The notes beneath the pieces were generated by a model, which was not told where the DNA came from, made no database searches, and saw nothing but the letters and a program-made list of their open reading frames with translations. A stretch of 64,000 nucleotides of DNA from positions 19,726,974-19,790,973 of the forward strand of contig NC_135259.1 of the NCBI RefSeq assembly GCF_964204865.1. Direction: 5' to 3'. Numbering within the stretch: position 1 is the stretch's first letter; each line of letters begins with the position of its first letter. The translations under genes and the position numbers were made by a program. This document shows positions 2,053-56,501 of this stretch, piece by piece. Source of the stretch: Styela clava (lineage: Eukaryota; Chordata; Ascidiacea; Stolidobranchia; Styelidae).

Positions 2053-3805
2053 TTATTCGCAACGGAACTTCATTTCCACCGCTTTCAGAGATTCCTTCGA
2101 CAAAGTGGACCAGTAAATTCCTGGTAGAACTCTGACATCTTCAGAACGATAAATTTCATTGAGGTGTGACTTGTACGGGGTCCCGAACCATCATGCGCCA
2201 TTATGTTCTTCCGCTTCGGTGCATTCCGAGGGAGAACCGATGCTGCAGAACTGTACACCTGAGCTGGAATTCAATGCATCTCCAGCATTGCCTGTGTTGT
2301 CGTGGACGGATAACGTGTAGAGCGATGACGGATCACCAACGGAGAACGCACTACATAATACACAATACAAAATATTATTACTTGACGTCAAAATCGGTAA
2401 TTTGTTCCTGTTCATAAATTGCCCGAAATCAAATGGTTAGATCAGTAGTTCGCAAGCATTTTAATACCGCCACCCCTAAATCGAATTATTAAAAGCTTAC
2501 CATCCATTCATAAAAATACATTAATTATATCGTTATCACTAAAAAATAGCGATAATACCGATAGCTATTGCATCTTCTGATCAAAATCTGCTCGGCCAAG
2601 TATTGTTATTGTGGTCCTACCAGCCGCATGACTAGTCTCATTGACTAGGTAAGGCCATTGCAAGTCCAGCTTTTTCTCAGACTAGTCAGTCATAAGTAAG
2701 GGATTCTAAAAGAGACTGTTGGAACAGTGATCATCTGAATTACCTCTCAAAATTGCCAAATTTCAAATAAATACCCAAGAGGGGTAATTCACCATGCCAT
2801 TGGTTATAGTTGGGCCAGGGACAAGGGTATTTATATTTGATACGATCAATTCACTTCTTGGCCTGGTTCCAATTTTAAATGTATGACGCGTAATAGGAAT
2901 ATAGTTTGCCAGTGCGACAGCCTGATATACCACCTGATCGTTTTAAACTTATATTCTATTCCCTGACTTCTCAATTCTAGCTAATGATTTAACGTTGACC
3001 GGATAAGACTCGGCTTTGTTAATATAACTGATATAGAGCGCAGGCCCAATTTTTTAAGATCAGCCAAGTTTCAAAACTTTACTCAATGTTGGAAGATTAC
3101 TGAAGTTGCAAATGATGCGTTGAAAACTACCCCAATGCGGCACTACACTTGAAAAAAATCAGGTCATCCACTTCTAAGGAACAAAGAGTATGGTTGTCAA
3201 TTAAGAAGACCCTTATCATATCATGCATCCCTACCTGTATTCTGCGTAGTGTGCTGTTGAGTTCCAATCCATTAAATCAACTCTGAGCGAACATTTACCT
3301 CTTTGTGTGAACTGGTTTATTGTTTCCAAACCTGGAATAAATTGCTACAAAGAATTATGAGCATCATTTCGGTGAAAGTTAAAACTATGAGAACCGGCGA
3401 CCCAAAGAACTCAAATCAACGAAAACAGCATAGTTAGCAACAAGTATAAGAATTATTCAGTAGGGGACCTTGCTCATTCAATATTTCTTCTTTTTCTTTT
3501 CTCCCCACTTTCATGACGTAATTTCATTGTACTGATGAATCCACACGAGGCGCTTAGTGCGCCAGTGACTCTTAGTAAACTTAATATTTATGCGGAATTT
3601 TAGACTATACGTAATTTGAGCATTCATCTGCTTGTATTTATATGATATTCAAATATAATGTTCAAATGAATTTCGTATTTCGTTGGAAGAAATTTTAAGA
3701 GCATTTGCCAAAAGAAATGTCACGCGGACTCGTTCAGCGGCTCAGGAAATAGGAAACTCATCTCTTAGCAAGGTTACGAGTGGCCCAGTATGTCCCCCAG
3801 CTTTT

Positions 3806-3838
3806 CATTTTAGGGGGGGGGGGGGCGAAATTTTGGGG
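3806..3838 (+). repeat. Poly-G tract
   Basis: A run of about 13 G follows 'cattttag' and is followed by 'cgaaattttgggg'. The same lead-in (attttag plus G run) recurs at 4897. It lies in the intron of locus A between exons 3235-3331 and 5243-5339. Confidence 0.8.
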
Positions 3839-4729
3839 AGTGTAAATAATTTGCTATTAGCGATAAAACTATTTGTATTGTTAAAAAATTGGTATGTATT
3901 TGAGAAACGATGTACATGAGGGGGCCCCCAAGTTGATTGACGGCGAGTCAAAGTACACAGCAGAATTAAATTGTAGGGCCAGAAAAGGGAGCGAGGAAAA
4001 GTGCGCGACAACACGGCTGGGGTTCAGGGCGCGCCCAAGCGCCCTGAAAAAATTTCGAGAAATAGGTAGGATTTTAGATACACCTAGCATCGCAGTTTGT
4101 TATGTAATGAAATTAATATTTATGATATTTAGCTGATAGAATTCCCGAGAAATAAATAACAAGCACCGCTTTCATCAAGTAATTTGCAACTGATATAGTG
4201 ACTAATGAAGTTACTTGCTCATCTAGCATACGGCCTTGTATGGATGGCTACTTATGACTTGTTCTGTTACACATTTCACATTTTTTTGAACGTGTTTGTT
4301 TGACTTTTGTTTGAATTGAGCAATAAAATAAATTTTGAAATACGCGCGTCAACTGATCATCATGGCACATAATGTTGTATTCCTTCAGAACTGAAATGTT
4401 TTGTTGGCAAGAAAAACAAATCGCTGAAGTTTGATTCTTTCCAATAAAGAAATAAAAACGCTGCCATTCATTTAAAAAGGTCTGTTTTCAGTGCCTAGTT
4501 TTCGTTTTGTGACATCTTTAAGCTTTCTTAATATACGGCTGATATTTAAAATACTGCAGTGTGTAATCCTAATACTCATACGAACACATAGGATACTGGT
4601 ATAATTCAATTGTTACAAAATAAACCTGCTTAAACTGTGATAATGATGTACCGATAGACGGTATCTAAAACTCAAAAGGTACCAAATGAAGTGTTAAACT
4701 ATTTCACTCAAGTTCGGCGGGCCATTTTA

Positions 4730-4787
4730 AATCGTTACGCGGGCCGTAATTGGCCGCACACTGCGGTTTGGAACCCCTCATATACAC
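4730..4787. mobile_element. Remnant of a hAT-type MITE end
   Basis: The segment runs from 'ggcgggccattttaaatcg' through 'gcgggccgtaattggccgc' to 'ggtttggaacccct'. This wording is typical of the ends of hAT MITEs seen elsewhere in the window, for example at 24071-24479. The partner end was not identified. Confidence 0.4.
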
Positions 4788-4872
4788 TGATAAATATGCC
4801 ATAGTCGTTTGAATTATTTGAATACAATTATGCTTGAGTTAGGAATTACAGTGTAAAATCGCACCTCAAAAT

Positions 4873-4948
4873 GAGGGGGGGTGTTTGAAATTTTAGGGGG
4901 GGGGGGGGGGGGGGGGGTGTTCACCCCCTATAGGGGGGGGGGGGGTAG
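4873..4948 (+). repeat. Long poly-G tracts with a C-rich hinge
   Basis: A 7-G run, then a run of more than 20 G at about 4897-4917, then 'tgttcaccccctata', then a run of about 13 G and 'tagggaaa'. The G runs could pair with the central C5 or form a quadruplex. Exact lengths are unreliable in any assembly. Confidence 0.85.
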
Positions 4949-7639
4949 GGAAATCACTGGAGTGGCCACTCCAAGTGAGCTACTTGGATTATATTTTTTG
5001 ATGTCAGCTTATTACGCAACGCACCATAAAATACTTATTGACAGGACACATGAAGCAGTCAAAGCCAATTCCACCAGGAAAACAAGTATAAAGCAGAGAG
5101 TTCCACATAACCGAATTTAAGAACAATTTTTGGCGTGTAATGTCTTGGCGTATGAGCGATTCACTGACTTAAATTATAAATGAAATAACACGAGTACTCC
5201 CTTCAAATTATCCACGATTTATCAAGTTAGTGGTGTGCTCACCTAACCAGTAATCTTCATCGACATTTCCAAACCAGTCAACATAGATTTGCCAGTTTTT
5301 AATAAAACTGATATCTCCTTCCCTTCTTCTTTGAAAAACCTTTGTAAAAATGACCAAAATTTTATCTGTAGTGGCTTTGCCAGAAAATTGTTTCGAGATG
5401 TAGCCAGTATTTTCGTATAAACCTGTCTTGGTATTGCTCAAAATAGTTCACGCGTCGAAAGTGTCAGGTTGATGCGTTTTGTCACATAGAGAATAGAGAA
5501 GTAATTGCAACATACTCTCAACTTTGTACTCAATGCAGTAGTCATGTTGTATATCGGAGCGCTCGGTACTACCAGAATATGTGCTTATTAAGTTCCTGGA
5601 GTCGCTTGTGGTGTTCATCAAATCAATAAGTGATATTCGTTAGAATTTAAGACGACGCATAAATATTATTTGCAAATTAGGCGGCTGCACATTGAAAGCG
5701 TTTCCTGGGACGATAGGTAACTGTCAAAATTAATTGTCTAACATCTAAAATCAGTGAATTATTTACACTCAAGCATGAATTTGCTGCAAATGAATAGAAC
5801 AAAAACGACTCTTACCGTCCATACATTATTCGCGTCAGGTGAACAGTCACAGTATACGTCAACACCGGTCTTGTATGTAAATTCTGGGTAAATTTCGCGG
5901 GGGCGCCTTTGGTGGCAAATCCAATGGGCATGTTTTGAAGTTTCCCTTTCTCTATACCGTCACACAATACAGAACAGTTTTCGACTTTTATAGCTGCAAT
6001 GAAGAACAAAATTAATACAATTTGTGGTAAGTAATCAAACATAGATACAATGCGTACAATATATTTGTGTTTGACGAAGGCCCAATTTATATTTGTCTTT
6101 GGCGATTAAAATCGAATTCAATAAACTGGTTTACTTAAAATAGGAGATAATTGTTAAGATACAAGTAGAAAATAGTTGATTTCTTGAAGAGACAATTTTT
6201 GAATATTTTCACGAAACTTTACTGCCACAGCTTTATAGGTGGTCCTGTTCGTAAAATAACGCAATTCAGCTTTTTCTAAAATTGAAAGCTTTTAAAGGTT
6301 AGAAGTGCTCAAAAAAAAAATTAACATGCCTACCTGGGGCCATCGGGGTTGTGTTGCATCGTTTATCTCCCAACTGTACAAGAACAAAATAGAAAAAATT
6401 ACATGTTTTCGAAACGCTCGAGATCTCCTCTCAGAATAAGACTGTGAATTGACAGCTGACATAAACTGCTATTTTTGAAAGAAGTGAGAAAACTTCCGAA
6501 TGTCCGCACAAAACCCAGATATTTAACTCGTCACATATTAGGGCCTGAGGTGCAGACGACATGAAATAGGCGGTCACGCACGTTTAGTCGATATAAAAGT
6601 ATCCGTACTTGTATGAATCGAACCAGTGAATGAACCGCTATTGTAATCAGATCTTTGGAATTACACTAACGTTGTGTTGTTATTACGAAATAAACTATTT
6701 CCAGGATTCATTATGTAGCTGACAATGTAACCAAGGAAGAATGTCGAAATTATAAATAGAAAGTTGGAGCCCCGCGACTGCACCCATCCAATATAAATAA
6801 ATATATACTGTAGATAGCAAAAAAAATTATTCGCCAAGTTGTCTGCTTACAACCTCAACAAAAATGTTATAGTGATATTACCTGTATTTCACCCGCTTTT
6901 GTGCAAAGGTTCAAGTAAGCGCTCTATGATTTAAAAATATTGGCTTTGTTGGCCTTAGTTGACCTGGCTCGTAAACAATAGTCGACTGTACCGCAATATA
7001 AATTAACACATAATTTATTTCAGTCGAGACTCGAGACTAACTTATAGTACTCACTAAAACACCTAGCGGGAAAGATATCCCAAAAGTTAAAGCAGTAGTA
7101 GCAACTATGCAAAAGATGATATGCTGTCTTATACTTTGCTCGACAGATGGATCTAAAAAAGCATCATTATTTTTAATATTTTGCACACTACTACAAGCAA
7201 GGCATATATTCTATTAATAAACAATTATCCAAGAATTTCAGAACGTTTTCTAACATACCTATTAAAATAAGTGCAATTTGAATATTTCACGTAAGCAGCG
7301 GGACCCGACTGTAGTGTTTATTGTTATGCAAAAGCAGATTGGCTTGACAATGCTGTGTCGCAAATGTGTGAATCTCACTACATATATCAAAATCTTCTGC
7401 CAAAGTATTATATCAATCCTAACCCAGAATATAATATGATACCCTCTTGCCCTAAATATATACAACCACAGGTGCGGGGCGTGACATTTTTAAGATGCTA
7501 CAAATAAGCTAGCTACGTGGCCATAGAAGTTCGTGTTTCGCAATATGAGCGATCCTGTTTTATTTTGTTGTCAAAAATGAGATTTTCAAGAAACCTTGGC
7601 GGGTCATTAATTCTCTTTCGTACTCGCTCTTGCCATATT

Positions 7640-15395: not shown

Positions 15396-16461
15396 TAATT
15401 TACTTTTTCTTTCTAAACTTCATTTCTGTGAACGTTAGTGTTTGAAGTTGTTTCCAGTGAAGCCACCTAATTCCTTGAGGATCATTTCGTCCATCTTGAT
15501 GATAGACACCGTTGAGATTTGCGTAATTACAATTCCTATGCCACCAAGCCCCTGCGGTATCCATTGCACAGTTGTGAGTCGACTTATAGTCATTATCGGA
15601 ATCTTTTGTAGTGAACTACATTCCATTACTATATGTCATTGAATCTCCGGCTGTCCCCGAATATCCACCGACTTTCAAACAATAATTATCGCTTGCAGAT
15701 GCGATAGAGAACGTCCTGAAAAAAAGTGTGATTTGAAAGTTTATATTCCAAAAGTTATATTCCCAGTTTCTTTATCTGCGTAACCGAGTTTAGCGAACAT
15801 GGGTGGTTTTTTTAAGTATTGTGAAGAAAAACAAGAGAGCTATGCTCAAATATATGGACACGTAGAGTCACATAATTTTGATGACGTCATAGCGAAAAAA
15901 AAAGTAATAGCCTTCTGGAGAAAATTTTTATCTTTAACCACTGAAAATTTCAAAGCAATTGGTCCAGTATTCGAAGAGAAAAGCGACTTTTTAAAAACGT
16001 GTCGAAGAACAAGAACAACAACAACATAATATTGAAACGATCGTTATGTCCACTACGTGTCCAATTAGGCAGAGATGAAAAAGAATTAACATTGCCTTTA
16101 CTCGTTAGGCCTAGACGTTTGCAAATTCCAAATAGCATAATGTACAAATTGGCGAACAAAAATTAATTCTCACTTACTCATATTTAGCATAGGCTGAATC
16201 TCCAGAAACGTTTTTCAAATCCACTCTGAGTTCGTAATTTCCGTCCTTAGTCAACTGGTAAATGGTTTCTAGCCCTAAAAATGAAAAACAAACAAAATGA
16301 AGTCATCAAACACAGTGGTCCGCGAAGCATGTAAACCAAGATGGCGAACACCGGAACGTAATATGTACCAGGTTAGGCCATAATTTCAAGTAAAAATACT
16401 ACGGGAGTCACTTGGCTAGTCCCCGAACTCGTAATAATACTAAAACGAGAATATCGGTCGG

Positions 16462-16665
16462 AGACCGACGACTTATCGATCGAGCGATAATTAATTAATT
16501 AATAACTCGCTAATTACACGACATAATTAGCCCAAAATCAATAGGCTTCTAGTCCGAGATATGATGCAAGCACATGCAAAATTGTGAGATATCGCGTTCA
16601 TCTAACAGACAGACAAATACCTATCAACATACTTACCGATCTTAAGATCGATAAGTAATAAGGAA
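16462..16665. mobile_element. GATC-ended MITE, copy 3
   Basis: It begins 'acttatcgatcgagcg' and ends 'taagatcgataagtaata'. The core matches 14145-14420. It is inserted in the intron of locus B between exons 16178-16274 and 17216-17312. Confidence 0.75.
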
Positions 16666-17433
16666 ACTCGGAATAAAATTATGACCCAACCCTAGCCTCG
16701 TACACATACTACGTTCCAATGTCCGCTATCTCGGTGTCCGCCAAAAAACGAAGTAGCGAAACTAAAATTAATTTTACAAAATAGGGTTGATAAACTCTTG
16801 TTGAAGCAGGCAAATACCTGCCTTATTTTGGACAAAATAGAACATTGGAGTGATTCATTTGCCACACTTTATTTGGAAACAATATTGAATGCTGTAATTG
16901 CGCGTGCCGACGGCACATGAAGATCTAAAGAGACACAGACATGATGCGGGAACTGTAATGTGGCTCCCATCGCGTGGATTGCAAGATATGCGACCAAAAG
17001 AAATATAGTATAAGATCTGTAGAAACATTCTAAGAACGTTCCGAGGCCTCTTAAGGCAATTTGACAACAGTGGGTGACATTCAAGATTTTTGACAATGAA
17101 TGATTCCGAGCTCTTCCTGTATATATAACCAGCCTATATTAGCGAAATGTTGTTTATTTTACGCAGTATAATGTAGGTTTCGCCCAGTTTCCTTATTCAG
17201 ACATATTTTACCCACCTAACCACATTTCTTTATCTTTTTCTCCAAATCCATTAACATAGTCATTCCATCCTCTGTAAAAGTCTTCTATTCCATTCATTCG
17301 TCTTTGAAAAACCTTAAACGACAAGAATATTAGATTTTCTTACCTTTGCTAATTAGAAGTATACATTCTAAAGTAGGCTACATGTGTTTATACAAGGTAT
17401 GTGAACCAAGATGGAAGGTAGTGTGTCTACGGG

Positions 17434-17625
17434 CTCGGCTCATATAAGCGTACATAAAAAGGAGGTACAGAAGTAAAACGAAAGTAGGATGATACGGATG
17501 CAAGACAATGAACTTCAGGATTTTGGTAAGCAAACATTCATAGGTTTTCGGGGCCTGTTTGTTCGGCATTACACACTACAACGATGTCCTAACTAAAACA
17601 TATTTTGTCTTAATCATTGTCTTCT
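17434..17625. repeat. Near-identical ~190-bp direct repeat, copy 1
   Basis: The segment from 'ggctcatataagcgtacat' to 'attttgtcttaatcattg' is repeated at 22340-22530 with few differences: a short deletion near the start and a ~13-bp insertion in the second copy. Both copies lie in introns of locus B in the same orientation. Confidence 0.85.
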
Positions 17626-18077
17626 ACCAGACTAGGATTAAGTCGTTGTTTTTCCAATATTCCTTATGTTAGTTCTATTACGAGTTCAGGGGCTAGCCAA
17701 CTGACTCCCGTAGTATTTGTACCTAAAATTATGGCCTAACCCTAACCAGGTAACACATACTAAATCCGGTGTCCACCATTTTGGTTCACATACTTCTGGA
17801 GTGCCCAAACTATTATATAAGATATGGCAAAATAAAAGAGTAGCAAATGATTTTCAAAGTTACTCTGTTAAAATCAACGTCTTGTTAAATATTGTTGCTA
17901 ATTTTCTAGTTTAGGTAGCGCACTTTAGGTAGGCATGCGAGCAGGTCCATTTATGAATATTTGCAAGTCTTGATTATAATAAAGGCTTTGGCTTACGAGA
18001 TTTTTATGCCGCGGAGGACAACAAAAATAAAAGTGATGATTTTCATCGAATCAAAGTTTTTTCGGTACTTCCGAAGT

Positions 18078-18260
18078 ATGTGTACCTGGTTGGGTCATAA
18101 TTATACTCCGATTTTAATTCTATTAGAAGTTCGGGGATTGTCCATGTTAGCCAAGTGAATATACCCATTGCCTACAGGTTTCAGTTCCTTCACACAACCT
18201 GATGTAAAATTGGCGAACAAAATTAGTTACCTCCCTATTGGTACACATACTTCCAGAGCG
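18078..18260. repeat. Dispersed 'cacatacttccagagcgcc' repeat, near-complete copy
   Basis: It spans 'atgtgtacctggttgggtca', 'ttctattagaagttcgggga', 'ccaagtgaatatac', 'caacctgatgtaaaattggc' and 'ggtacacatacttccagagc'. It matches 59595-59815 almost throughout. It lies next to the 18325-18470 exon of locus B. Confidence 0.65.
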
Positions 18261-18609
18261 CCACTTTTTCAGCTTGCGAGAATGGCTACGTAACGACCAC
18301 CATATTATATCAGTTATTTCTTACAATCCACCCGCCTCCATCTGTTTCAAGATCGCAGTAAACTTCGAACGGTTTGTCTCTCGACTCTGGATAGATATCA
18401 AAGACTCCACCGGTGGTGTTCTGAATTTTTGCATAGCTTTGAATAACTTTCGTGCAAGCTTCGGGAAAAGCTGTCAAAAATTCATAAAATTTAAAGACTT
18501 TTACATAAAAGTAAAGAAATATATGCGCAGTAAAGGGTGTGTTCCAGAATAATGATCTTAATTTTGATGAATTTGAACTTGGGAACAGTGCAATATTATC
18601 ATGTATATT

Positions 18610-18814
18610 CAGGGTGTCCCTAAAGCCCTTTTACAATTTAAATTTTGTGATGCAGTCAGTTCTCGATATATCTTAACCGGGTTTGTTGTTTTTGATCGTT
18701 AATTGTTAAGTATTTTTACTTCATTTAAAACATTTGTGAGGCCCGAAGCAATATATGGTATCGATAAATTTATTTTGCTATTTTAAAACATTTTAAGAGT
18801 TTATGGGCATCCTG
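18610..18814. mobile_element. 'CAGGGTGTCC' MITE, copy 1
   Basis: It starts 'cagggtgtccctaaagcc' and ends 'agtttatgggcatcctg', forming imperfect inverted termini. Copies are found at 37449-37662 and 46411-46609. This copy lies in the intron between coil and fibrinogen exons of locus B. The copy in locus E is at the equivalent place, so it probably predates the B/E duplication. Confidence 0.65.
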
Positions 18815-19048
18815 TATATTTGCACCAGGACATTTGTACCTGTATACTTTTGCACCCACGGTCGTTTGGACTCATGGATATTTGTACCCAAGGACATTTG
18901 TTCCCACGAACATTTGCATCCATGAACAAATGACAAATAATGGAATTTATCGACCCATATAATAAATTATTGAGATTTTCTATGCGGTTCAGCTATTCAT
19001 TAATAAATAGAATTTCGGACTTATATGAATCTGATGAATCTACTACCA

Positions 19049-21264: not shown

Positions 21265-21479
21265 GGAGAAATCAAGGTTCGAATAGTTGAACGGTCTTTT
21301 AAAAAATTAGACATTTACGCTATGTATGGAACCGAGAACGATCTTTTATGGTTGGATGATGGCGAGGAGGACCGCAACACTCAACCAACACCAGCCTAAA
21401 ATGATCCCTATGGCGACCAGGCGTCCGCCAAACACTGATGTCGATTGTTTGACGATGACGATGAATTGCGTGGTTTTTA

Positions 21480-22335: not shown

Positions 22336-22339
22336 GTAG

Positions 22340-35854: not shown

Positions 35855-35859
35855 GAAGG

Positions 35860-38018: not shown

Positions 38019-41000
38019 ATGTCTAGAGCTGAAACGATATTCCACTCTGATATTCCAGATAATACAAATGGAAGCAAAGCTTTGCCATCGAATAACAATA
38101 TTTCCGAAACGGCAACCGTTCAGCAGCAAAAACAAAAAGGTATTATAACTTCTAGTTTATACGTGGTATCATTCGTTTCCAACATAGCTTTGTTTTTCAA
38201 TTAATGAAAACATACTATTACATTCGCATTTCTATAAGATGCATAACGTGACTTGCCCTGTGAAAAATTTATCACGAACCATTGAATTTTCTGGAAACCT
38301 GGACATAACTGACTTTATTACAAATCCTATGAATATTCGGTCATTGTTTGAATTCTTCTACCATTCCAGTTACTAAAGACACAGCAGTAAGAAGAGGACT
38401 GATTGCTCTGACAATATTTGTATCATTAGTTGTTGGGCTTGTTGTTTTCTGTCTTGTGATCATCACACAGGTATGAAAAATGTACCATTCATTCTATCAA
38501 TATACCGGAAGTCTAATGCACCAACATCGTGACAAAAGTATTTTGTCAAAACGTTAAAATTCACAATGCAATACAATCTCTCTTTCATTTATATTTAAGA
38601 TACAACGACGCTATTTACCCCAACTATGAAATCTGACCTAAATATTTTATTAGTGTAAGAGCAAATCATTTTTTTGGATCATACAGAAAATTATTAAAAC
38701 TGACGGGTTTGATGACGTCACAAAGCAATAATCAATGCGAAGTTTCGATCGATCTGCACGATTGAACTAAAAATTTTAAAATCATATTACTTGATTTTAA
38801 TACCCTTCACTGGGATCTAGTTGTATGTTATTATTCAGAATAAACTGCCCATGATAGTCGCAAATTTAGTAGCAGCATGAATGTAATATGTGGCAAGGGT
38901 CATCTTTAGATCCTTCAATGCCCTTATAAGCTACATATAAATAGTGATGAAAATAATTATTTTGTACCAATAGCTACAGTATGAAATGAGAATTATGAAA
39001 GAGCGATTAGAAAATCAAGAACACCAGTCCTCTGGACAATTGAAATGGCTTGAACGAAATTTGACATCTGAAATTAACAATTCGTTTTCGGAATTGAAGA
39101 TGATTGCAAATGAAGGTAATTTTTCTGTTTTAAATATAGTTTGGCATGTCGAACGAATGTTCTGTTGAATAAATAAAAAAGGTATTCATGAGCTGCGAGG
39201 AACTCTACAGACTTTGGTTTTGCCAATAAAATATCTTGCGAAATCATCAGCATATACACCTTATTACACATGTGGTTCACGTGTATATTTGGCCTTTCAC
39301 TCCAGGTTAAAAAAAAATTGACTACCACTCTCGACTAAGAAAATTCCGACTGTGAAAAATTTGTGCGTTGCAAAGATAAAAGCCTTTCAGTTTCAGTTGA
39401 ACATTTGGACTTACTCTGAACTTGCGACTCCGGCGAGGTGATTCGAATCCGACACCTCTGATTAATAATACTAGAAATTATATAAATAATTTTACAAGAG
39501 TTTATCACAATTAGAAATGACTGAATCTAGTAATCTGTAAAAATGTGACAATATTGTCTCTGACAGGCTTTGAAAAGGCGACAAAAAGGTTCCATTACAT
39601 TTGCACCCACGGACATTTACACCCGTAATTTGAACCCACGATAATGCACCTGCATACTATTGCACCTATGGAATTTTTTTATACGGATATTTGAACTCAT
39701 ATTAACCCTAACCCATTGGTTTTAGCACTCGCATATAGATTGAACCCGCGGATATACGAATGCAAATGTATGGGTTCAAATGTACATGGGTGCAAATGTA
39801 CGGTCACCGACAAAAAGTACTTGCTATCAGACATAAATAGCGTTAGGTTTTTACAGATTCAAGAGCGCTCTACTCGAAACTACAGCAACATCAGTTACAG
39901 ATTAATCAGTCTCTTGAAAGAATTTTACATTTGAATCATTCCATTGAACTCCTGGTTACGGCAACACAAGGTAACACACAGAGCATTAAATGGGCGTGAG
40001 TTCTTTATGTCCGCACGGGAAGTCTTGAGTACCAAAGTGACATGCTAGTTGCGATGAAATTGCGTCTCGGCCCTCTCTTCCTAAGGCATTCTAATGTCAA
40101 ACAATACATTGCGACGTTGAAGTTATGTAAATTTTTATTCCAAATACGCAATTAGTCCCGTATCCAATATGCTGATTTTGAACAAACGAATATTGATTTC
40201 TTCATATCACTCATGTTTTTTCAATTAGTAGAGGCGATGTGTAGGACATCTAGTAGAATACGCGTGCAAATCAAATTTTTGGTCAATTAACTGAATAGCA
40301 ATTATTTATTTACCCCACCCTCTATGTAAAAATCTGAACTATAATTTTTACCAGATTTTCCGAAAGGTTGCACAAATGTACATCGCATCTATGCAAAGCG
40401 TCAAAACACCACCGGCGGAGTCTTTGATATATATCCCGAATCAGAACACACATCGGTGGAAGTTTACTGTGATCTTGAAACCGATGGAGGCGGATGGTTT
40501 GTAAGTTACACTTTTATTTATAATTGATTCCACATAACCAACATGGTTGGGTTTAACGTTTCTATCTTTGTTATGAAACATTTGGTCTATTGCCGTGAAT
40601 ATTACGCCAATAAAAATAGATGAAACCATTTCCTGATTCGATTCATGCGATAGCAAATCAGCTCTAACGGAATTTATTAAGGTCTTTCAAAGAAGAATGG
40701 ACGGAACGGAAGACTTCTACAGAGGATGGAACGACTATGTTAATGGATTTGGAGAAAAGGATAAAGAAATGTGGTTAGGTGGGTGTAGTTTATATCGACA
40801 AAAACTATAATTCTAAATTTAGTATATTGTCGTATGGAAAGCGGTTCCAGTCGTCAGTAACCAGTTGCGTTACGTTAATTTAGGAACTAATAAAAATGGG
40901 CCAGATATAGATATACGAATCTTAAGTGCCTCAAATAGTACACCATTTTCACGCAAAGTAATAGCTAATTTGATTCCTAACACAATTATTGAAACGAGCG

Positions 41001-44000
41001 CAAAAAGATATCTCGCGATTCGAGAGAAATCAGAGAATCGGCGCGCTCGCATGACATCGTTATTCATATCACTTCGCTAACGCGGCAGAAATCTCTTAAT
41101 TAAGATATACCACGACATCGGATGTAAAATAGGAGGTTCCATTACATTTGAACCCACGTACATTTGAACCCATGACAATTGCACCTGTATGCTATTGCAC
41201 CTATGGAATTTTTTTTGTTTCACGGATAGTTAAACCCATACTAACCCTAACCCATGGGTTTTAGCACCCGCATATAGATTGAACCCGTGGATATACGCAT
41301 GGGTTCAAATGTACATGGGTTCAAATGTACGGTCACCAAAATAGGACTATCTTTTGTTTCGTCGAATATCTATTTATTGCGCCAGGCAAATAATATTACT
41401 AAGTTTACACCCGGGTAAAATTGATATCCATCACTAGGGAAGATTAATTTAGGAGGACCGATCGACCTGTCATGATGTCTACAGGCTAAATATTAAAAAA
41501 TCCAATTTAAGGGAATCAATGGATAGCTGTTTAAAAGAATTGGAAGATATTAGTGGCAAATACGACAACGATGTGCGCTTCGAAAAAGCGCGAATACAAT
41601 GCGAAAATCGATAGCGTGCTGCATAAAGAGAATATTTAGCGAAAGTTTTCTGCGTCATGAACAACGTCCACTGCACTAGATTTGCAATCAAACGTTAGTA
41701 AATGAGTGTCCTAAGCCTACATAGTTGAAAAGACATCTTCGCGCAAAGCACGACTCTCGTCGCAATGAGTCTGCCTGATGACTTTTTTCATCGTTTTATT
41801 GCGAACTTCGGAAACACAATGAAGATCATTTGAGAGTGAGTTTCTGAATGCAGGGAAGCACACAAGAGCATCATTTGAGGCTTCCTTGATGATTGCAGTA
41901 TTGGCAAGGAACTTCTTCTAGCAGCGGCAATTGCAATGAGTGCAGTTGTTCACGGTGAAAAAGAGGCCAATGAAATGCGGAAAATTCTTAATCGAACAAT
42001 ACTGTGTCAAGCCGAATTCCCTAAAATTAGCAGAGATGAACAGGAGCAGCTCATTCTACGAATTAAGGAAAGCTGTGAATTTTTCATTCAGTTTGATGAA
42101 TCGATGGACATTTTCAAATAAAGTGTACCTGGTGTCGTATGTCAGATACATTTACAATAACAATATTAACGAGGATTTACTGTCTTGTCAGCCTATATAT
42201 GAACGTACTACAGAAATGATATTTTCACAGAAGTGAAACTGCAGACTGTGCAGTAGCAACATTGGGGCCTGCATTAACATACAGTGAGCTGGAAGTCGCA
42301 CCCACATCACATTTTTGTTATTGAGTAGGCTTACTCAAACTTAAAAATAACTGTATGAATAAAATATCAAAAATGCATATTTCGAACTATTTAGCATTTT
42401 TACCTAGAAGAGAAGGAATTTTAATTTAATATATTGGAGGGGTGGGAGCGCAAAAGTTAGGGAAGCTTGGTTTAAACGAATAATGTTCTTATTTGGTTTT
42501 GATAATCGGATGTCTGTTGTTGCATACTAGAGTGTGGGGCAATCCAAAAAAAAAAGTTCAATAGTTCTAGAGAGCACCATCAGATATGAGGGCCGACGTG
42601 CATTTGAATTGATATGAAATATTCATCTAAAAATTTTCTTGAATGTTTTCGATTATTTTTTTCAAGCATGAAAGTTTGCTGAGCTTTTTCGGAAATTACA
42701 ACCGGCTTTACTCCTCGTAATCAATTCATATGTTTTACATGCTCCATATTTAGGCTTGGAAACAATCCATCAACTGACTAAAAATGGAAGTTACGAACTA
42801 AGAGTTGATTTGGAAAATTTCAATGGAGACACTGCTTATGCTACATATAGGTTAGTGATGAAATATACTTTATCATTGATAACATATTTAAACCCAGCCT
42901 GACATGGGCAAACTACGACCGGCGGGCCAAACAGGCCCGTTGGGTGATTCAATCTGGCCCTCCTGATGCTGCCATAACCAAACTTGAACCAAATTTCCAT
43001 GTTTCAGCTAAAATTAACGATTAAATCTAGCTATGTCACGAGGCTTATCGTTTTCCGCATTTGTTTTTGTAACACTGTGAATATTGTTCACAAAATCCAA
43101 CTTTTACGTCACACTTACACTTTGTACTGAAATTTTTTTTGCAAAATTCCGCTGTTTTCTCTTATAGAAACACCGTTTATACTCCGCCGAGCGGTTTTTT
43201 TTGTGATCTTGGTGGTCACATTTTCGTATGAGTATCATATCCTATCGGCACTGCGGTTAGGTATTGCAGGATTTTCCAAACAGGGGTCCATGATGACTGC
43301 ACAGTGGGTCCGGTCCGCAGCGGTATGAGGAGTCTGATCGATTTTTAATGGTTGAGCGTTTCGAACAAATATGCATTTCTGTCGGAAAGGACAATTAAAA
43401 ATTTTTATTGTCTTTTGTAATGACTTATATATGTGAAACAGAATTTACAGCTCTTACCCATATGATAACAAAATACAGGTTGATAATCGTCGGAGAGTCG
43501 CACCTACAAGTTTGCTTGCCACAAATTGCTTTGATATTTGATAAATTGTGAATGAAAACTAACCTCATTCATCACATTAATGTCGTTTGTGGTATAAATA
43601 AAACATTATCTTCACTCGTTGGTTTGGCACAGAAATTGATACGTCATAAGATCCACAAATAGGGGTCCACGGCCCAAAAAGTTTGGGAAACTCTGTTTGA
43701 TAGGATCTTCGTGTTCATAAATATGAGCTTTTCTCTCTTGTAATTACTGATACTAGAGTCTAGCGAAATATTTTATAAAATTTCAGAATTACCACAAAAT
43801 CAAATTTTGTTTTTCGTTTTTTAGAGCGTTCTCAATCGCATCTGCAAGTGATAAATATCGGTTGACACTTGGGGATTATAATGGAACAGCCGGAGATTCA
43901 TTAGCATATCATAACAATATGCAGTTTAGTACGAAAGATTCTGACAATGACCAAACGTCCGGCAGTTGCGCAATCACTTGCAGTGGGGCTTGGTGGTACA

Positions 44001-44146
44001 ATAGTTGTCATGACTCAAATCTGAATGGGATTTATTACCAGGACGGGCGCGATACGGCACAATCCGTTAGTTGGCATGACTGGAAATTTAATCGGCAGTC
44101 TCTGAAGTTCAGTGAGATGAAGTTTCGAAAAAAAACATATGAATGA
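38019..44146 (+). CDS. FReD locus D: intact type II membrane fibrinogen-related protein (379 aa)
   Basis: Exons 38019-38139, 38370-38470, 38974-39115, 39857-39970, 40355-40500, 40682-40778, 42754-42850 and 43825-44146 join to 1140 nt with no internal stop; all introns are GT-AG. Residues 1-40 form a tail without tyrosine. V-R-R-G leads into a transmembrane helix at about 51-73. Residues 75-159 form a coiled-coil stalk with N-x-S/T sites. The fibrinogen domain spans 160-379: [39 protein letters not shown], the calcium-loop D-S-D-N-D, then G-A-W-W-Y-N-S-C and N-L-N-G-I-Y-Y. The layout matches FIBCD1-like receptors; ligand unknown. Intron 6 carries a MITE, a hAT fragment and a copy of the first-exon region. 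An in-frame upstream ATG at 37956-37970 could lengthen the tail, but the 38019 start aligns with F. Confidence 0.9.
39588..39808. mobile_element. 'GGTTCCATTACATTTGAACCC' MITE, copy 4
   Basis: It starts 'ggttccattacatttgcacc' and ends 'caaatgtacggtcacc'. The flanking gacaaaaa is repeated on both sides (9 bp if the shared G is counted). It is inserted in an intron of locus D between the two coil exons. Confidence 0.8.
41135..41337. mobile_element. 'GGTTCCATTACATTTGAACCC' MITE, copy 5
   Basis: Best copy. The left end 'ggttccattacatttgaac' and right end 'gttcaaatgtacggtcacc' are inverted over about 37 bp with mismatches. The flanking 9-mer aaaatagga is identical on both sides. The centre contains 'ctaaccctaaccc', a telomere-like word. 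It lies in intron 6 of locus D. Confidence 0.88.
41400..41490 (+). pseudogene. Stray copy of the locus D first-exon region
   Basis: 'aggaccgatcgacctgtca' and 'tgatgtct' with 'catcact(a/t)gggaagatt' match 37945-38030, the sequence around the D start codon. It has an altered start context and an immediate stop. It sits inside intron 6 of D itself. Confidence 0.65.
41730..42240 (+). pseudogene. ZBED5/SCAND3-like hAT transposase fragment
   Basis: Across two frames it reads R-A-S-F-E-A-S-L-M-I-A-V-L-A, then V-H-G-E-K-E-A-N-E-M, then L-I-L-R-I-K-E-S-C-E-F, and after a frame change Y-V-R-Y-I-Y-N-N-N-I-N-E-D-L-L and P-I-Y-E-R-T-T-E-M-I-F. This order matches hAT-derived ZBED5/SCAND3-type proteins. 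It is frameshifted and truncated, and lies in intron 6 of locus D. Confidence 0.7.
42895..43705. mobile_element. hAT MITE-like sequence in intron 7 of locus D
   Basis: The left side has 'catgggcaaactacgaccgg' and 'cgggccaaacaggcccg'. The right side ends 'gtttgggaaactctg', a hAT-type terminus like that of 25268-25751. The two ends do not pair well, so this may be two partial elements. Confidence 0.45.
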
Positions 44147-44700: not shown

Positions 44701-44709
44701 GTTAGCGCT

Positions 44710-46052: not shown

Positions 46053-48162
46053 AGTTTAATTCGAAACAGCAACTCCAAAATGATCAAGCTATAGACGACA
46101 TTTCACGATTGAACTTTTCTTTTTCTTTCCTGGCAAGAATTACACAAGGTAGCGTATAACACATAAGAGCTTGTCTTATTTTCGAGAAAACGCGTTAGGA
46201 CATCAGATTCAAATAAGTCTGAATTATATTTATTAATGTATATCTGCACCCCATAGCGAATCTCAATACTTTTTTATATATAACTTCCACGAAGGTCGAT
46301 ATATTTCCATTATTTTTCATTTGTTCATGGATGCAAATGTCCATGAGTCCGACTCAGAACGTCCGTGGGTGCAAAAGTATACAGGTACAAATGTTCTGGT
46401 GCAAATATATAGGTTGTCCATAAAGTCTTAAAATGTTTTAAAATTGCAAAGGGAATTTACCGATAACATATATTGTTTTGGACCTCACAAATGTATTAAA
46501 TAAAATTACTTATTAATTACCGATTCAAAACAACAAACCTGATTAATATATATCGAGAACTGACTGCATCACAAAATTTAAACTGTAAAGGGACTTTTTA
46601 GACACCCTGTATATACATGATAATATTGCACAGTTCCCACCAAGTTCATCAAAATTCAGATCATCATTCTGGAACACACCTATTGTTGCACATATTCTAC
46701 TTTACTATTCTGTAACAATATTTAAATTTTATGAACTTTTGACAGCTTTCCCCCCAACATTGCACGAAAGTTATTCGAAGCTATGCAAAAATTCAGAACA
46801 CCACCGGTGGAGATATATATCCAGAGTCGAGAGACAAACCTGTCGAAGTTTACTGCGATATTGTAACAGATGGAGGCGGATGGATCGTGAGTGATAATTG
46901 ATATAATATGGTTGTTGCATTAGCCATTCGTAGAGCTGAACAAATTTCGATTCAGTTGAAATCATTCTTTTTATTTTTGTTTTGTCTTCCTGTCCATAAA
47001 AATCGTGTGAGAAAAAGTAAATTGCGCTACCCAAACTTTGAAATTACCAACAATATTTCTCACAATCTTCTGTTTTGCTATATCTAATAAGATAATTTTA
47101 CCACATGTACTTGAGAATGTATACTATTTATTAGCAACGATAAGAAAATCTAACATTCATGACCTTTAAAGGTCTTTCAAAGAAGAATGAATGGAACGGA
47201 AAAGTTCTACAGAGAATGGAACGACTATGTCAATGGATTCGGAGAAAAAAAATAAAGAAATGTGGTTAGGTGGGTGCAAAGCATGTCGACGATTAAATGT
47301 CTCAAATAATAGATAATCATTAAAATTCATCGCGAACCCAAATTTTTCAAATATTCAAAGTTATTATATGTTCACATGTTTTACATTCTTCCCTTTAAGG
47401 CTTGGAAACAATCCATCAGCTAACTAAAGAGAGAAGTTACGAACTGAGAGTTGATTTAGCAGATTTTAACGGAAACACTGCAAATGCTAAATATGGGTAA
47501 GCATTAAAATACAGTTTACCATTATAAATTTTGAGACTAAACATTAAATTCTTGTATAATGAATCCACATCGACTAGTATTAATGATTCGAACATTTTGC
47601 TAATTCTCCCGCATATATACTGCAATAATATTCACTGATCGAAAACCATGTTTTTTCTCCATCGTCAAAAAATTTCAGTCACATGCCATATACAGCAGTT
47701 TAGTAAGTTGGGCGAAGTAAGTTGAATCAGGATCAAATTTTACGGATATTGTGTGTAATGTCGCTACAAGAATACATTTGATATTTTATTAAACGTTCAC
47801 TTAACCTGCCAGAAATATCATTGAATCGAGCTTCATTTGTTTTCAGGACGTTCTCAATCTCATCTTCGAGCGATCGATATCGGTTGATACTTGGAGAATA
47901 TTCTGGAACGGCTGGAGATTCATTGACCATTCATAACAATATGCAGTTTAGTACGAAAGATTCTGACAATGACAAATATTCCGGCAGCTGCGCAATCGAT
48001 TACGGTGGCGCTTGGTGGTACAATCAGTGTCATCTTTCAAACCTGAATGGGATGTATTACCAGGACGGGCGACTTATTACGAAATCCGTCAATTGGTATC
48101 ACTGGAAATTAGATCGCCAATCTCTGAAATTCAGTGAGATGAAGTTCCGGAAAAAACAATAA
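46053..48162 (+). pseudogene. FReD locus E: 5'-truncated, two homopolymer frameshifts
   Basis: Exons: coil 46053-46148 (96 nt), fibrinogen 46746-46886, 47172-47269, 47400-47496 and 47847-48162. The coil exon reads N-D-Q-A-I-D-D-I-S-R-L-N. The first fibrinogen exon has one extra base beside a C6 run (46750-46755) and lacks the V-F codons before D-I-Y-P-E-S. The next exon is 98 nt instead of 97, because an A8 run (47245-47252) is one base too long; this produces a TAA. The last two exons are fully open, with G-L-E-T-I-H-Q, T-A-G-D-S-L, D-S-D-N-D and G-A-W-W-Y-N-Q-C. No tail or transmembrane exon was found. Its closest relative in exon and intron sequence is B, on the opposite strand. Both frameshifts lie in homopolymers, so assembly error is possible, but the missing 5' exons favour a pseudogene. 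Confidence 0.78.
46411..46609. mobile_element. 'CAGGGTGTCC' MITE, copy 3
   Basis: It starts 'aggttgtccataaagtctt' and ends 'gggactttttagacaccctg'. It occupies the same intron as copy 1 in locus B, in opposite window orientation but the same orientation relative to the gene. Confidence 0.65.
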
Positions 48163-49081: not shown

Positions 49082-49933
49082 TATAATTAGGCTTCCCGCT
49101 GCTTGTTAGGCTTCCCGCTGCTTGTCAGCAGGGAACCTATTGTATTCCTGTGTTTTATTATTATTTATTTTTATTATTTTTTTTTCAAATTGGTCCTACA
49201 AACTTGAAATTCACCTCAAATGTGCAGAAGTTCTCAGCTAGCAATAAAATGCAAATTTTATGCATGACTGACCACGTTTTCACGCTCCAGTGAGCAAAAC
49301 GCGTTTTCAGTTATTTGGCGATTTCTCAAAATTGATACATGTTATTGGGTTGCAATTCATAACAATGATTAATGGACATGTTCCGGATACGACATATCAA
49401 GGATACGCATGAGTGACCTTGGCGATATGCTCCAGTGAGCAATATAGGATTTTACATTTTCATCTTCTTCTCGAGAACGACACTACTTAGAGACTTGAAA
49501 TTTACATCACATGCAGATAATAAGTCCCCCATCATAAATTGCAAATTTTAGGCATGACTGACCAAGCTTTCACGCTCCAGTGAACAAAACGCGTTTTCAG
49601 TTTTTTTGCGATTTCTCAAAATTGATACATGCTATTGGGTTGAAATTCATAACAATGATTAATGGACATGTTCCGGATACGACATATCAAGGATACGCAT
49701 GAGTGACCTCGGCGATACGCTCCAGTGAGCAATATAGCATTTTACATTTTCATCTTCTTCTCGAGAACGACACTACTTAGAGACTTGAAATTTACATCAC
49801 ATGCAGATAATAAGTCCCCCATCGTAAACTGCAAATTTTATGCATGACTGACCACGCTTTCACGCTCCAGTGAGCAAAACGCGTCTTCAGCTTTTTTACG
49901 CGGGAAGCCTGTTAAAGCTGCACGCAGCTCTAG
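49082..49933 (+). mobile_element. Helitron-like element with 290-bp tandem repeats
   Basis: The left end carries a doubled 'ttaggcttcccgctgcttg'. The right end has 'gcgggaagcctg', its inverse, then the hairpin 'agctgcacgcagct' and CTAG followed by T. A hairpin directly before CTRR and a following T is the Helitron 3' signature. The interior is a tandem array with a 290-bp period (unit starts 49251, 49541, 49831). Each unit is itself a diverged dimer of about 145 bp, sharing 'acgctccagtgagcaa'. No Rep/helicase is present, so it is non-autonomous. It lies between locus E and its downstream candidate exon at 50449. Confidence 0.75.
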
Positions 49934-51058: not shown

Positions 51059-51059
51059 G

Positions 51060-51915: not shown

Positions 51916-54900
51916 ATGTCTACTACACAGACAGAATTTCGTGGAAATTTCCCGCAAGTAAGGACGGTGGTACCAGATACGAATTTCTATGAAATCCCCA
52001 TCTCGCAGTCAACAAAGAGCGAAGGTATGTTTTTTTATTAGATTTATAGTCGACGCTACAGAAGTATGTGCACCAAGATGGCGCACAACCTGGTTACCCT
52101 AACCTGGTACACATACTATGTTCAGGTTGTCCGCCATTTTGGTGCACATACTTCTGGAGCACCATATAGTCAACTCACGCTATAGTATCGAGAACCGGCA
52201 TTATGCTGTTGGTAAGATAATAAGAAAGAAAGGCTCTTATTTGTGCTGGCGTATGAATATAGGCAAAAGTATTAGTATTCATGAAATATCAGAATTAATG
52301 TGGGCTCTAGTATTATAGCCAAAGAAAATTCTGGTTGCTATGGAAAATATAAAGCACTTCGCATGAAATATATGGCTAATATTCGGCTAATGTTTGTATT
52401 AACAAGGTAGCAATTTTCAAATACGGTATATATGAAAGCCAAAATAAAGTAGTATCATCTTTCACAGTATTGGTAATCTTCTTTATCAAAAAACTCCCGA
52501 CTATGATGACCACCAGATCCCTGAAATGCGATCGCGGTACCGACAAATGGGTGCGCAATTTTTTTTTCATTTTGTTGGGGTCATCACACAAAACTTCATA
52601 GTGAAAAACGAAATTGAAATGAAATAAAAGCAATAGATTTCTAGCGACAACAACAATCTTTAACCACTGGACTGGGCTTATTTCGAAGCAATTGGCCCTT
52701 TAGCTAACGAGAGAAGCAATATTTTCACAAACACAAGTATACTAACCGCAACAAAAATTGAACACACGATCCATAAAGCCACACTTTGTGTCCAACAAGT
52801 AAATTCTGTTATTATTTTAGGTAATAAAGACACAACAGTAAGAAGAGGACTGATTGCTCTGGCAATATTTTCATTAATGGTTGTTGGGCTTGTTGTTTTC
52901 GGTTTTGTGGTCATCATACAGGTTGGAAATATATATCCGGGATCGTTTTATCATTAAAACGGAAAGTGTGAATGTATTTGCATAGTAAACATACCTCACA
53001 GTCAATTTCACTAACAGTGGGACTGACTCATTTTCAATAACAAAATTCTAAATGCAGAACAAAGTACAGAAGAATCTTTAAAACACGAGAAACTTTAAGG
53101 TCTTTGCTGTCTCTCCAACTATTACATTCAAGATATAATGTTGTTATTATATGTCCAAACGTGAATATTTGATCAAAACATCCAATAAATTTTTGTTAAC
53201 AAAAATTGTTTATAATGAAGTGTTTAACTAAAAGCAATAATTGATGCAAAATTTCACGGGCTTCAAATGTATTTTTTGAAATATATTCAAAGCTATTTTT
53301 AAAATGGCTGAACTTGATTTGATATCCTAAACTAGGTTCGACTTATACGCTTTTTTTTAGATCAACCGCCAATTACAGTCTCAAATTCAGTGACATGTTA
53401 AGCATTTCGCTGTTCTAACAATCAATTGGTTTTCTGTGGATAGGAACCAAAACTATCCAATTTCTCTAGTATTTTCAAGTTGACACTGAAAACGACTAAT
53501 TGATATTCACAGCTTCAGAATGAGATAAAAACTATGAAAGTCAAAATGGCACATCAAGGAAACCACCCAACCTTTGAAATTTCACGCTTAAATCATTCCG
53601 TAGAACTTCTGCTGACAGCCATACGAGGTAACTAGAACACACATCAAATTGCCGAGAATATGCCTCGCGTATCCGCATAAGCCATGAGGTTTCTCGCGGA
53701 ACCAAAATGAATATGCTGGGGACAATGGAACTAAGTCACGTACTCCACTACTGCATTTCAATGTCATTCCAATTCTTTTCAATACTGCATTGCGATATAT
53801 TAACTATAGTTCTGAAATAAGCTATTGGTTCCGTATTTAATGTCATCAATGTGAAATAAATTGGAATTTTGTTATTTCACACAGCAATTCATCCTTCACC
53901 ACACCTGTCATTTCGATACCGTACTCAGTTATTAGTTAAATATTTGTTTTAATTGAGGTGATAAATAAAACAAATTTGATTCTTCAATTGGTTGAGGTAT
54001 TGTGTAGGACTCCTCGTGACCCTCAAGGCCAAATCTTTTAGCGACGTAAATGATCTTGAAAAGACATTTTTCACTTTAGTCTCCAATAATTTTTAAAGGT
54101 TTCCCAAAGAACTGCACAACTGTAAACCGTCACATTGCAAAACGTCGAAACACAACCGGCGGAGTCTTTGATATTTATCCTGAATCGGAAGACAAGCCTG
54201 CCGAAGTTTACTGTGATCTCGAAACGGATGGAGGCGGATGGATTGTATGTTAATACTTATTTTAATAATTGCTTTCAAGTAGCCAACATTAGTATCTTTT
54301 CTCTTTTAACTTATTTTTTCGAAACACTCACGCAAATTCGGAAATTTCAGAAATAAACCCAATTCATTACTAATGGAAACAACTTTAACAGCATTTGTTA
54401 TTTGTAATAACGAATAATCTCTCACAAATTAAAAGGATTACTTTTTTTCTTTTTAAGCATTTTATTGAAATTCCGAAAACTTTTAGATAAAGATATCGTC
54501 ACGTCGTGTAACCGTTTAAATATAATTTGAAAAAGAACTCATTGATAAGTTGATAACTGAGGCTAAAAAATCACAGTTGAAACATAATTTGTTATAATAT
54601 TTCTAAGGTCTTTCAAAGACGAATGGACGGAACGGAAGACTTCTACAGAGGATGGAACGACTATGTTAACGGCTTCGGAGAAAAAGATAAAGAAATGTGG
54701 TTAGGTGGGTGAAGTACATTTCGCTATAACAAAAGTAAAAGTTTCGCATTTGATCTATTCTATTGCATCCGAGGGCTGGCAAATTTTGTGGTGTGAGTCT
54801 GACCATCATTAAGTAGCAAATGTTACACATAGTAATAGAAAATAGCATACGTGCAGCAGAATTCACCAGAAGTCTCAAAGTTTCATCCGATTTCCTTCAG

Positions 54901-56501
54901 TCGAGATCTCATGATAAATTAAATACCCATATACAAAGCTGCAAGGGAGAAAAAACTTTGGTATGACGATTCTTGCTAACATGTTTGAAGAGGTGGTCTC
55001 TGCGACAGCTAGCCATAAATGAAACAAAATTAAAAATTCTCAACTTAGATCAGAATTCCGTTGAGCTTTTTAGGAAAATTTCATGTGAAATTGGGGGTTC
55101 GATGAATATAAGTCGCTCTATTTAACACTTTGAAGACATTGTAAAAGTTTTTGTAATTCATTTTGAACATTCATAAAGTTTGAGATTTCCAATGATAAAT
55201 TGAATATTATTTTCTTGCTTGACGATGCAATGCAGCTAGTTGTTCATATCTTTTGCTTTCACTACATTTAGGCTTGGAAACAATTCATCAACTGACTAAA
55301 ACGGGAAGTTACGAACTAAGAGTCGATTTGGGAGATTTCAATGGAAACAACGCTTATGCCAAATACGGGTAAGTGCGTAAGTGGCAAGGTATAATTAATC
55401 CCTATAAATGTGACTTGGAAGAACAAAATAGGGTACTCCCGCAGTGTGTGTACCAAGGAAAATACCTTGATATATTATATTGAGTCATAAGATTATTTTA
55501 CGTCATGTCATGAGTGAGGTTTAGTTCATGAGCCATTAGTATTACTAAGTTGTTATTATAATTTCACCATTTCCGCGGGTATCGGTTCTTTACATAATAT
55601 AAAATATTGGCACATACACTTCTGGAGCTTCCAAAATAGTTCTGCCCCAAGTATGCAGTTATTTATTTGTGTTGCAATAATGTTCAATGACAGCCAACGG
55701 GAGTTCTCTCTATATTTACGAAATTTGAGTCATATAACATCAAAACAGTAGTTTGTCATCAAAAAATTAGTTTTGTGTCACGACGAGATATACAAAACAA
55801 CATATGTGTTGAGGATAAATAAAGCACAACCGGTGTTATCGAACCAAGAATGTCCAAATAAATTGAATACATTCAAATTTCGATGTTGTTAATTCTTTAT
55901 TTCATCTATAATTTAGGATATTTTTATTTAAACATGTCCTTTTAAGCATTTATTATCTTATGATAGACAAAACTTTAGTAACTACTGGCATAACAATAGA
56001 GAATACTAATTGTCCCAATTTCTCTGAATAACTAAGTTTGATTCTACGAAATCCCGAGTGTTTTGCGAAACGGACCCATTCCAGAATATGTTCGATATTT
56101 CATATCCGAAAAGATTAGTTTAAAATGTATTTGATTTCGAGCCATGACAGCCTATATTTTAACGACAACTTGTCCGTTTTTACAGAATCTTCTCTATCGC
56201 ATCTGCAAGCGATAAATATCGGCTGACACTTGGAGAATATAACGGGACTGCTGGAGATCCATTCACATATAATAACAACTCACAGTTTACTACAAAAGAT
56301 TTTGATAATGATCGTAATGATGTCGACAGTTGTGCGGTAGATCGGAAAGGAGCTTGGTGGTACAATTGGTGCTCAAATACAAATCTGAACGGCGTATACT
56401 TCAATTATGGGAAAACGGATCGCACCTCAATCTACTGGCATAACTGGAGGCAACTTCAATCCTTAAAATTCACAGAGATGAAATTTAGATTGAAGACTTA
56501 A
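51916..56501 (+). CDS. FReD locus F: intact type II membrane fibrinogen-related protein (326 aa)
   Basis: Exons 51916-52024, 52821-52921, 53513-53627, 54099-54244, 54608-54704, 55272-55368 and 56186-56501 join to 981 nt without a stop; all introns are GT-AG. Residues 1-36 are the cytosolic tail, with T-E-F at 6-8, N11, P13 and Y25-E-I-P-I. V-R-R-G precedes a transmembrane segment at about 47-69. One 115-nt stalk exon (about 71-109) replaces the two of B and D; its start resembles their first and its end their second. The fibrinogen domain (110-326) has [20 protein letters not shown] and V-F-Q-R-R-M-D-G. Next come [23 protein letters not shown] and E-M-K-F-R-L-K-T stop. The role is inferred as a cell-surface lectin-like receptor; the ligand is not predictable. 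Confidence 0.9.
52055..52165. repeat. 'accaagatggcg' foldback repeat in intron 1 of locus F
   Basis: 'agaagtatgtgcaccaagat' on the left and 'attttggtgcacatacttct' on the right are inverted around 'aacctggtac'. This shows the family's two ends facing each other and explains the partial copies in locus B introns. Confidence 0.75.

Follow-up and report, generated by a model that had tools for sequence, protein, structure and literature searches.

The question raised by this part of the Styela clava genome (376.6 Mb) is what kind of protein its row of FReD genes encodes, how far the row extends and what it may be used for. The window, meaning the whole stretch of 64,000 nucleotides analysed here, lies at C13:19726974-19790973, C13 being our label for the contig that holds it. 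In an initial annotation it had been read as seven FIBCD1-like loci in two opposed arms, two of them intact, with the same set of exon lengths at every place.

Extent of the cluster and state of its loci

Exon peptides were searched by tblastn against the window together with 80 kb to its left and 120 kb to its right, and loci were built by splice-aware modelling. These searches and models placed 14 FReD loci across 145.5 kb, from -8072 to 137469 in window coordinates (C13:19718901-19864442), giving a cluster of at least 14 loci. They are arranged in three orientation blocks: A2, A and B on the minus strand, C, D, E, F and G on the plus strand, and H, I, J, K, L and M again on the minus strand. 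Six loci (A, B, C, D, E and F) lie inside the window rather than the seven first claimed; A is one locus, and a separate A' was not found by tblastn. The strands given earlier for A and B (minus) and for C-F (plus) are borne out, but the two opposed arms are an effect of the window's edge.

Twelve of the loci, B-M, belong to one type II family, of which six are open (D, F, H, J, K and L). The open models span genes of seven, eight and ten exons with consensus splice sites, and have lengths of 379 (D), 326 (F), 322 (H), 359 (J), 332 (K) and 435 amino acids (L; 423 with an alternative donor site). The remaining six are damaged or incomplete: B has an in-frame TAG in its last exon, C is a fragment, E carries a frameshift, G lacks a last exon, I has no AG acceptor at e7 and M has a frameshift in e5; the single-base lesions among these could be assembly errors. 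D and F, correctly singled out as the intact pair of the window, are both fully open with AG/GT at every intron (8 and 7 exons, respectively), but two intact genes among seven becomes six open among twelve for the type II loci overall. The even division of B-M into open and damaged or incomplete loci agrees with the birth and death that had been proposed.

Within the window, the leftmost locus is A (2053-5883, minus), a divergent FReD gene with exons e5 at 5825-5883, e6 at 5243-5339, e7 at 3235-3331 and e8 at 2053-2350, the last containing one in-frame TGA. It forms a divergent tandem pair with A2 (DNA 76-91% identical over the three longest blocks), and in the FReD tree it sits on a long branch apart from B-M. 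A TM-like putative exon upstream of A (7038-7123, minus) was picked out by a hydrophobicity scan and by DNA comparison of A with A2; A2, to the left of the window, also has a similar TM-like candidate, again a putative exon, upstream. Locus B (15400-22993, minus) has eight exons, at 22888-22993, 21886-21986 (TM), 19843-19984, 19361-19474, 18325-18470, 17216-17312, 16178-16274 and 15400-15715. Locus C (34276-35064, plus) retains e7 (34276-34372) together with a last exon that is broken in frame and interrupted by a stop. Between the minus block of A and B and the truncated C lies the remnant of a hAT transposase (31844-33739, minus), in which Pfam matches DUF4371 in one ORF and the hAT dimerisation region in the adjacent ORF; this remnant may mark the rearrangement that cut C.

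On the plus strand, gene D (38019-44146) comprises the tail exon e1 (38019-38139), the TM exon e2 (38370-38470), e3 (38974-39115), e4 (39857-39970), e5 (40355-40500), e6 (40682-40778), e7 (42754-42850) and e8 (43825-44146). Locus E (46053-48162, plus) has an e4-like exon, e5, a frameshifted e6 of 98 nt, e7 (47400-47496) and e8 (47847-48162); neither a tail nor a TM exon was found for it. Gene F (51916-56501, plus) comprises e1 (51916-52024), the TM exon e2 (52821-52921), a fused-looking stalk exon (53513-53627), e5 (54099-54244), e6 (54608-54704), e7 (55272-55368) and e8 (56186-56501). The exon length set first reported at seven places (101, 142, 114, 146, 97, 97 and 316/322 nt) is thus real, but within the window it is whole only in B and D: in F a single exon of 115 nt replaces those of 142 and 114 nt, the last exon of A is 298 nt, C is reduced to a 97-nt exon and its broken last exon, and E has the 98-nt exon.

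Imperfect tandem repeats of 15-16 bp, of the related TTTGAACCCA / ATGTACATGGG type, are dispersed in introns of B and D and in one spacer (18849-18916, 26806-26863, 39761-39801 and 41298-41330), and a 290-bp unit is present in 2.3 copies with 94% matches between E and F (49244-49897). None of ten further ORFs of the window was matched by Pfam, and a search of Rfam at gathering thresholds gave no matches.

Tail, membrane anchor and stalk

The exon plan is a tail (e1), a TM exon of 101 nt (e2), a stalk (e3 and e4) and a FReD head (e5-e8), with phases from e1 to e8 of 0-1, 1-0, 0-1, 1-1, 1-0, 0-1, 1-2 and 2-end. In the genomic models the tail, a single TM helix, the stalk and a C-terminal FReD therefore occur together in one protein. 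The reading as a membrane protein had been made to depend upon a TM helix from the 101-nt exon, and a strongly hydrophobic one is found: the Kyte-Doolittle mean over 19 residues is 3.16 in D and 2.99 in F, where the next best stretches reach 0.51 and 0.58. A TM helix is present in all five open models examined (D, F, H, J and K) and is the sole strongly hydrophobic stretch in each (2.62-3.16 as against 0.63 or less elsewhere). The N-terminal flank of the helix is more positive than the other flank in four of the five, the exception being F (+1 vs +2), which mildly favours a topology with a cytoplasmic N-terminus.

The e3 exon product of D was predicted from its single sequence by AF2 as one helix (pLDDT 94.8). 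A simple heptad test gave a coiled coil no support, with 1143 (D), 535 (F) and 1726 (B) of 2000 shuffles reaching the score. The FIBCD1-like order claimed at the outset thus holds for tail, TM helix, helical stalk and FReD, but its coiled coil is unsupported by this crude test. The order in FIBCD1 itself, as given in excerpts of PMC3908420, is a short tail, one TM helix, a stalk and a C-terminal FReD with calcium aspartates.

Since e4 has phase 1-1, its gain or loss keeps the frame. There are three e4-type exons in L, four in M, up to five e4-like matches in G (one with stops) and one each in B, D, I and J, and e4 was not found in H; in F and K a single stalk exon, of 115 and 133 nt respectively, looks as if the beginning of e3 had been fused to the final part of e4. 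The stalk ranges from around 29 residues (H) to around 140 (L), and in these gene models members of one cluster differ in stalk length through exons that were gained, lost or fused. The fused-looking stalk exon, at 115296-115428 (minus) in window coordinates for K, to the right of the window, and an unusual tail are shared by F and K across orientation blocks.

Eleven tails were compared (B, D, F, G, H-M and a gene on C17, described below). Ten of the 11 have a distal tyrosine, within the pattern hydrophobic-Y-(E/G), and eight a proximal FYxx tyrosine; in six the latter reads YxxI, which we take to be an AP-2-type sorting motif. Both tyrosines are lost from the open gene D, where H and S are found instead, and the proximal one is lost from F and K. 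Over the ten cluster tails pN/pS is 0.49. No canonical ITIM or ITAM was seen in the tails by eye.

Scaffold and pocket of the head

The FReD predicted for the heads was recovered by Pfam, with Fibrinogen_C matched in the last exons of locus E (E-value 5.2e-33, 115 bits), D (3.6e-31, 109 bits) and F (1.3e-24, 88 bits), all over the curated cut-off of 22 bits. By sequence, the nearest solved heads are those of FIBCD1 (4m7f, E-value 2.5e-62) and, practically equal, tenascin-R (2.7e-62). The positions of the S1 pocket were defined by the ligand residues of FIBCD1 given in excerpts of PMC3908420 and PMC10825690. Variability and pN/pS were calculated for ten members, leaving out A and A2 (divergent), C (fragment) and G (last exon missing); since this set includes the damaged B, E, I and M, the tests were repeated with the six open genes alone.

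Variability is concentrated at the ligand pocket, which adds new evidence for the recognition role suggested earlier. The mean entropy of the ten S1 positions is 1.98 bits compared to 0.71 for the remaining positions of that last exon (0/20,000 permutations), and in the six open genes 1.70 compared to 0.58 (0/20,000). In an earlier alignment with nine S1 positions the values were 1.98 bits and, over the 193 FReD positions of the domain, 0.63 (0/20,000), or 1/20,000 when the test was confined to the last exon; the four scored core residues reached 2.32 bits (1/20,000 over the domain and 13/20,000 within the last exon). Among the 193 scored positions, 413, 432 and 405 rank 2, 4 and 5 in variability, and 382 and 412 are less variable (57 and 43).

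The codons give the same contrast. Over 45 gene pairs pN/pS is 1.03 at S1 codons, 0.95 over 27 ligand-face codons, a set partly picked after the entropies were known whereas the ten S1 positions came from papers, and 0.23 across the 80 codons that make up the remainder of the last exon; for the open genes only, it is 1.08 at S1 codons against 0.34 for every remaining codon of the exon, among which the face loops are counted. At the pocket, pN is above pS in 24 of the 45 pairs. Synonymous sites are well diverged (pS around 0.5), so that the contrast within one exon is sharp, short of proof of positive selection; a pocket pN/pS near 1 fits relaxed constraint as well as it fits diversifying selection. 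The protein encoded by e6 is near-invariant in the type II loci and identical between D and F, and its low pN/pS (0.11) despite a pS of 0.48 points to constraint rather than to recent gene conversion. The equivalents of D393, D395 and C414 are invariant in all ten members. In contrast, of the four acetyl-pocket residues Y405 (F allowed), H415, Y431 and A432, each member keeps between none and two, and Y431 is kept in 0/10.

It could be argued that these loci are mostly decaying duplicates with no shared function, the pocket variability being a sign of relaxed constraint; such an account would suit the six of twelve type II loci that are damaged or incomplete and a pocket ratio that is about 1 and not clearly higher. 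We consider it unlikely, because the scaffold in the same exon and e6 have the low ratios given above, the pocket pattern persists in the six open genes alone, and the calcium-site aspartates, Cys414 and, in 10/11 tails, the distal tyrosine are retained.

The reading we favour, with moderate confidence, is that B-M encode surface receptors of type II, crossing the membrane once and bearing pocket-diversified FReD heads, that they form a family specific to this tunicate lineage, and that they are probably immune. It starts from what can be read directly in the sequence, namely the gene models, the cluster, the contrast of pocket and scaffold and the conservation of the tails. Such a receptor would be anchored by a TM helix and a short cytoplasmic tail, which in most members carries tyrosines; from there a helical stalk, differing in length between genes, would lead to a fibrinogen-like head that bears a calcium site. 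Each gene would retain the scaffold and alter the S1 pocket residues, so that the cluster would offer a germ-line panel of binding specificities. The surface heads, perhaps as oligomers, would differ between genes in the ligands they bind, and binding might be passed inward via tail phosphorylation (SH2 docking) or via endocytosis of the YxxPhi type (endocytic adaptor); the tyrosine-less D could be a silent member, a decoy or a competitor. The cluster would have grown by duplication in both orientations, with the pseudogenes as by-products. Judging by the behaviour of the gene family and by known FReD biology, the most likely use is immune recognition, in which blood or epithelial cells would recognise glycans or altered surfaces.

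Kinship, comparable systems and other FReD genes

The claim of a lineage-specific family stands. Nine of the twelve members (B, D, F and H-M) form a clade at 99/99 in a tree, drawn without C, E, G, A and A2, that also includes human FIBCD1 and tenascin-R and a single sequence from each of six further FReD clusters; in a second tree, with all fourteen loci, the twelve B-M group together at 92/89. The first tree groups D, F and K at 85/89. A simple inverted duplication of one arm is not supported by the second, where the plus block and the right minus block are each scattered (4 changes each) and the left minus block falls on one side at 56/65, but this tree is poorly resolved, 13 of its 18 inner branches being open.

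Whether the cluster should be called FIBCD1-like is a more divided matter: the order of parts and 4m7f as the best solved relative speak for the name, but the acetyl pocket is not kept and membership of the FIBCD1 family has a p-AU of 0.44. It is improbable that these are tunicate orthologues of vertebrate FIBCD1, multiplied as scavenger receptors for acetyl groups (chitin). A clade of FIBCD1 with the cluster is not rejected at that p-AU, and the order of parts and the calcium-site aspartates are shared, but the free tree does not show this grouping and supports none, tenascin-R scores nearly equally, and the clusters C8_9.2, C17_8.9 and C19_6.8 of the same genome keep 3-4 of the 4 pocket residues, of which the members here have 0-2. 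Furthermore, the vertebrate FIBCD1 is one gene rather than a cluster, and the stalk here changes in length with exon number.

Ficolins are secreted, and the enlarged FReD repertoires of invertebrates are for the most part regarded as secreted lectins. With ficolins, tachylectin-5 and the other FReD clusters of this genome the cluster shares its head. In 7-kb stretches of six such clusters, five have e5-e8 laid out as here and the sixth (L033) has e6-e8. A D/F-like tail or TM exon was found in none of the six regions over the 3.5-5.3 kb or so covered upstream, where the scan for TM exons took in phase 1-0 exons of 80-149 nt, so that divergent or farther exons are possible. Weak hydrophobic candidates lie upstream in L030 (1.91, signal-peptide-like), L031 (1.83) and L034 (2.13).

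The genome-wide family count proposed in the initial annotation gives at least 161 FReD exon matches, with 150 of 718 candidates scored, and tail or TM exons outside the cluster were found only on C17 and C5. The TM exon of F has nine matches (seven in the cluster, C17:7820587 and C5:8257032) and the tail exon of M has eight (seven in the cluster and C17:7820250); each search recovered 7/10 of the known cluster exons, and dispersed members may therefore be missed. The C17 gene, with tail and TM exons and a FReD exon at C17:7827159, is a probable dispersed member of the family.

For the pocket, last exons from eleven other places were compared (44 rows, without loci L001-L008). The pocket residues are kept at 3-4 of 4 in C19_6.8, C17_8.9, C8_9.2 and C10_7.7, are mixed in C3_18 (2,2,2,2,4) and C6_8.8 (2,3,1), and number 0-2 of 4 in C6_23, C18_14, C14_6.8, C10_11 and C10_22. 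In the four other clusters with at least 5 rows, excess pocket variability was seen for C6_23 (4.6-fold, 0/5000), C18_14 (2.4-fold, p 0.008) and C19_6.8 (2.4-fold, p 0.02), with a weaker excess for C3_18 (1.7-fold, p 0.07). Pocket-biased variability is thus a wider habit of the FReD genes of this genome and is not specific to the membrane form.

The Ly49, NKR-P1 and CD94 proteins are type II lectin-like receptors with a stalk, encoded in a gene cluster, with diversified heads and with tails that either have or lack a tyrosine. It is tempting, if doubtful, to see in the pocket-diversified family what the NK gene complex is to vertebrates, but built on the fibrinogen fold: type II heads for different ligands would stand on exon-tuned stalks and tyrosine-bearing and tyrosine-less tails would signal in opposition. 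The likeness is one of function by analogy (type II, stalk, lectin-type head, cluster, diversified head) and extends to tails with and without tyrosine in one cluster, as in Ly49-like paired receptors (a distal tyrosine in 10/11, none in D). However, the head is a FReD and not a C-type lectin-like fold, a canonical ITIM was not seen, and the tyrosine-less D has no charged residue inside its TM helix. A CD94-like type II gene is described in Botryllus (PMC5465252, in excerpt). The family lets one ask whether type II lectin-type receptor clusters arose more than once in chordates, and a clustered, membrane-anchored FReD family provides concrete genes for studying tunicate recognition without antibodies or MHC; one cluster also exhibits the change of stalk length through exon gain, loss and fusion. 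Among the open-access matches listed, judged on titles and the openings of abstracts and with subscription papers outside the scope, a clustered type II FReD family of tunicates is not described.

Least likely of all is a v-Themis-like self/non-self system for allorecognition or self-sterility: the polymorphic FReD proteins named v-Themis control self-sterility in ascidians, and their genes lie within intron 1 of s-Themis genes, which are of REJ/PKD1 type (PMC9265791, in excerpt), and the cluster is likewise a diverse set of tunicate FReD proteins of recognition type, but v-Themis identity was rejected since exon-by-exon searches, which can miss, placed 0/7 PKD-channel and 0/9 REJ matches on C13, a membrane anchor is predicted here as against vitelline-coat proteins, and a REJ/PKD locus is on C18, near two other FReD genes.

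On C18, exons matching REJ and the PKD channel, of which some contain stops, are located at C18:10420781-10442473 (minus), and two FReD genes, each one open frame, at C18:10502459 (minus) and C18:10537456 (plus), around 60-120 kb away; these make a candidate s/v-Themis-like pair. At C19:5.33-6.08 Mb FReD exons of equal or near-equal scores recur around every 100 kb, which suggests a large recent segmental array or an assembly repeat. In keeping with a tunicate genome, of which a fusion of cellulose synthase to GH6 is the hallmark, the sole GH6 match (C9:16179895-16180164, plus, 35.4 bits; cellulase-like in PDB, E-value 3.8e-6) lies 2.1 kb downstream of its sole Glyco_trans_2_3 match (C9:16177301-16177801) on the same strand.
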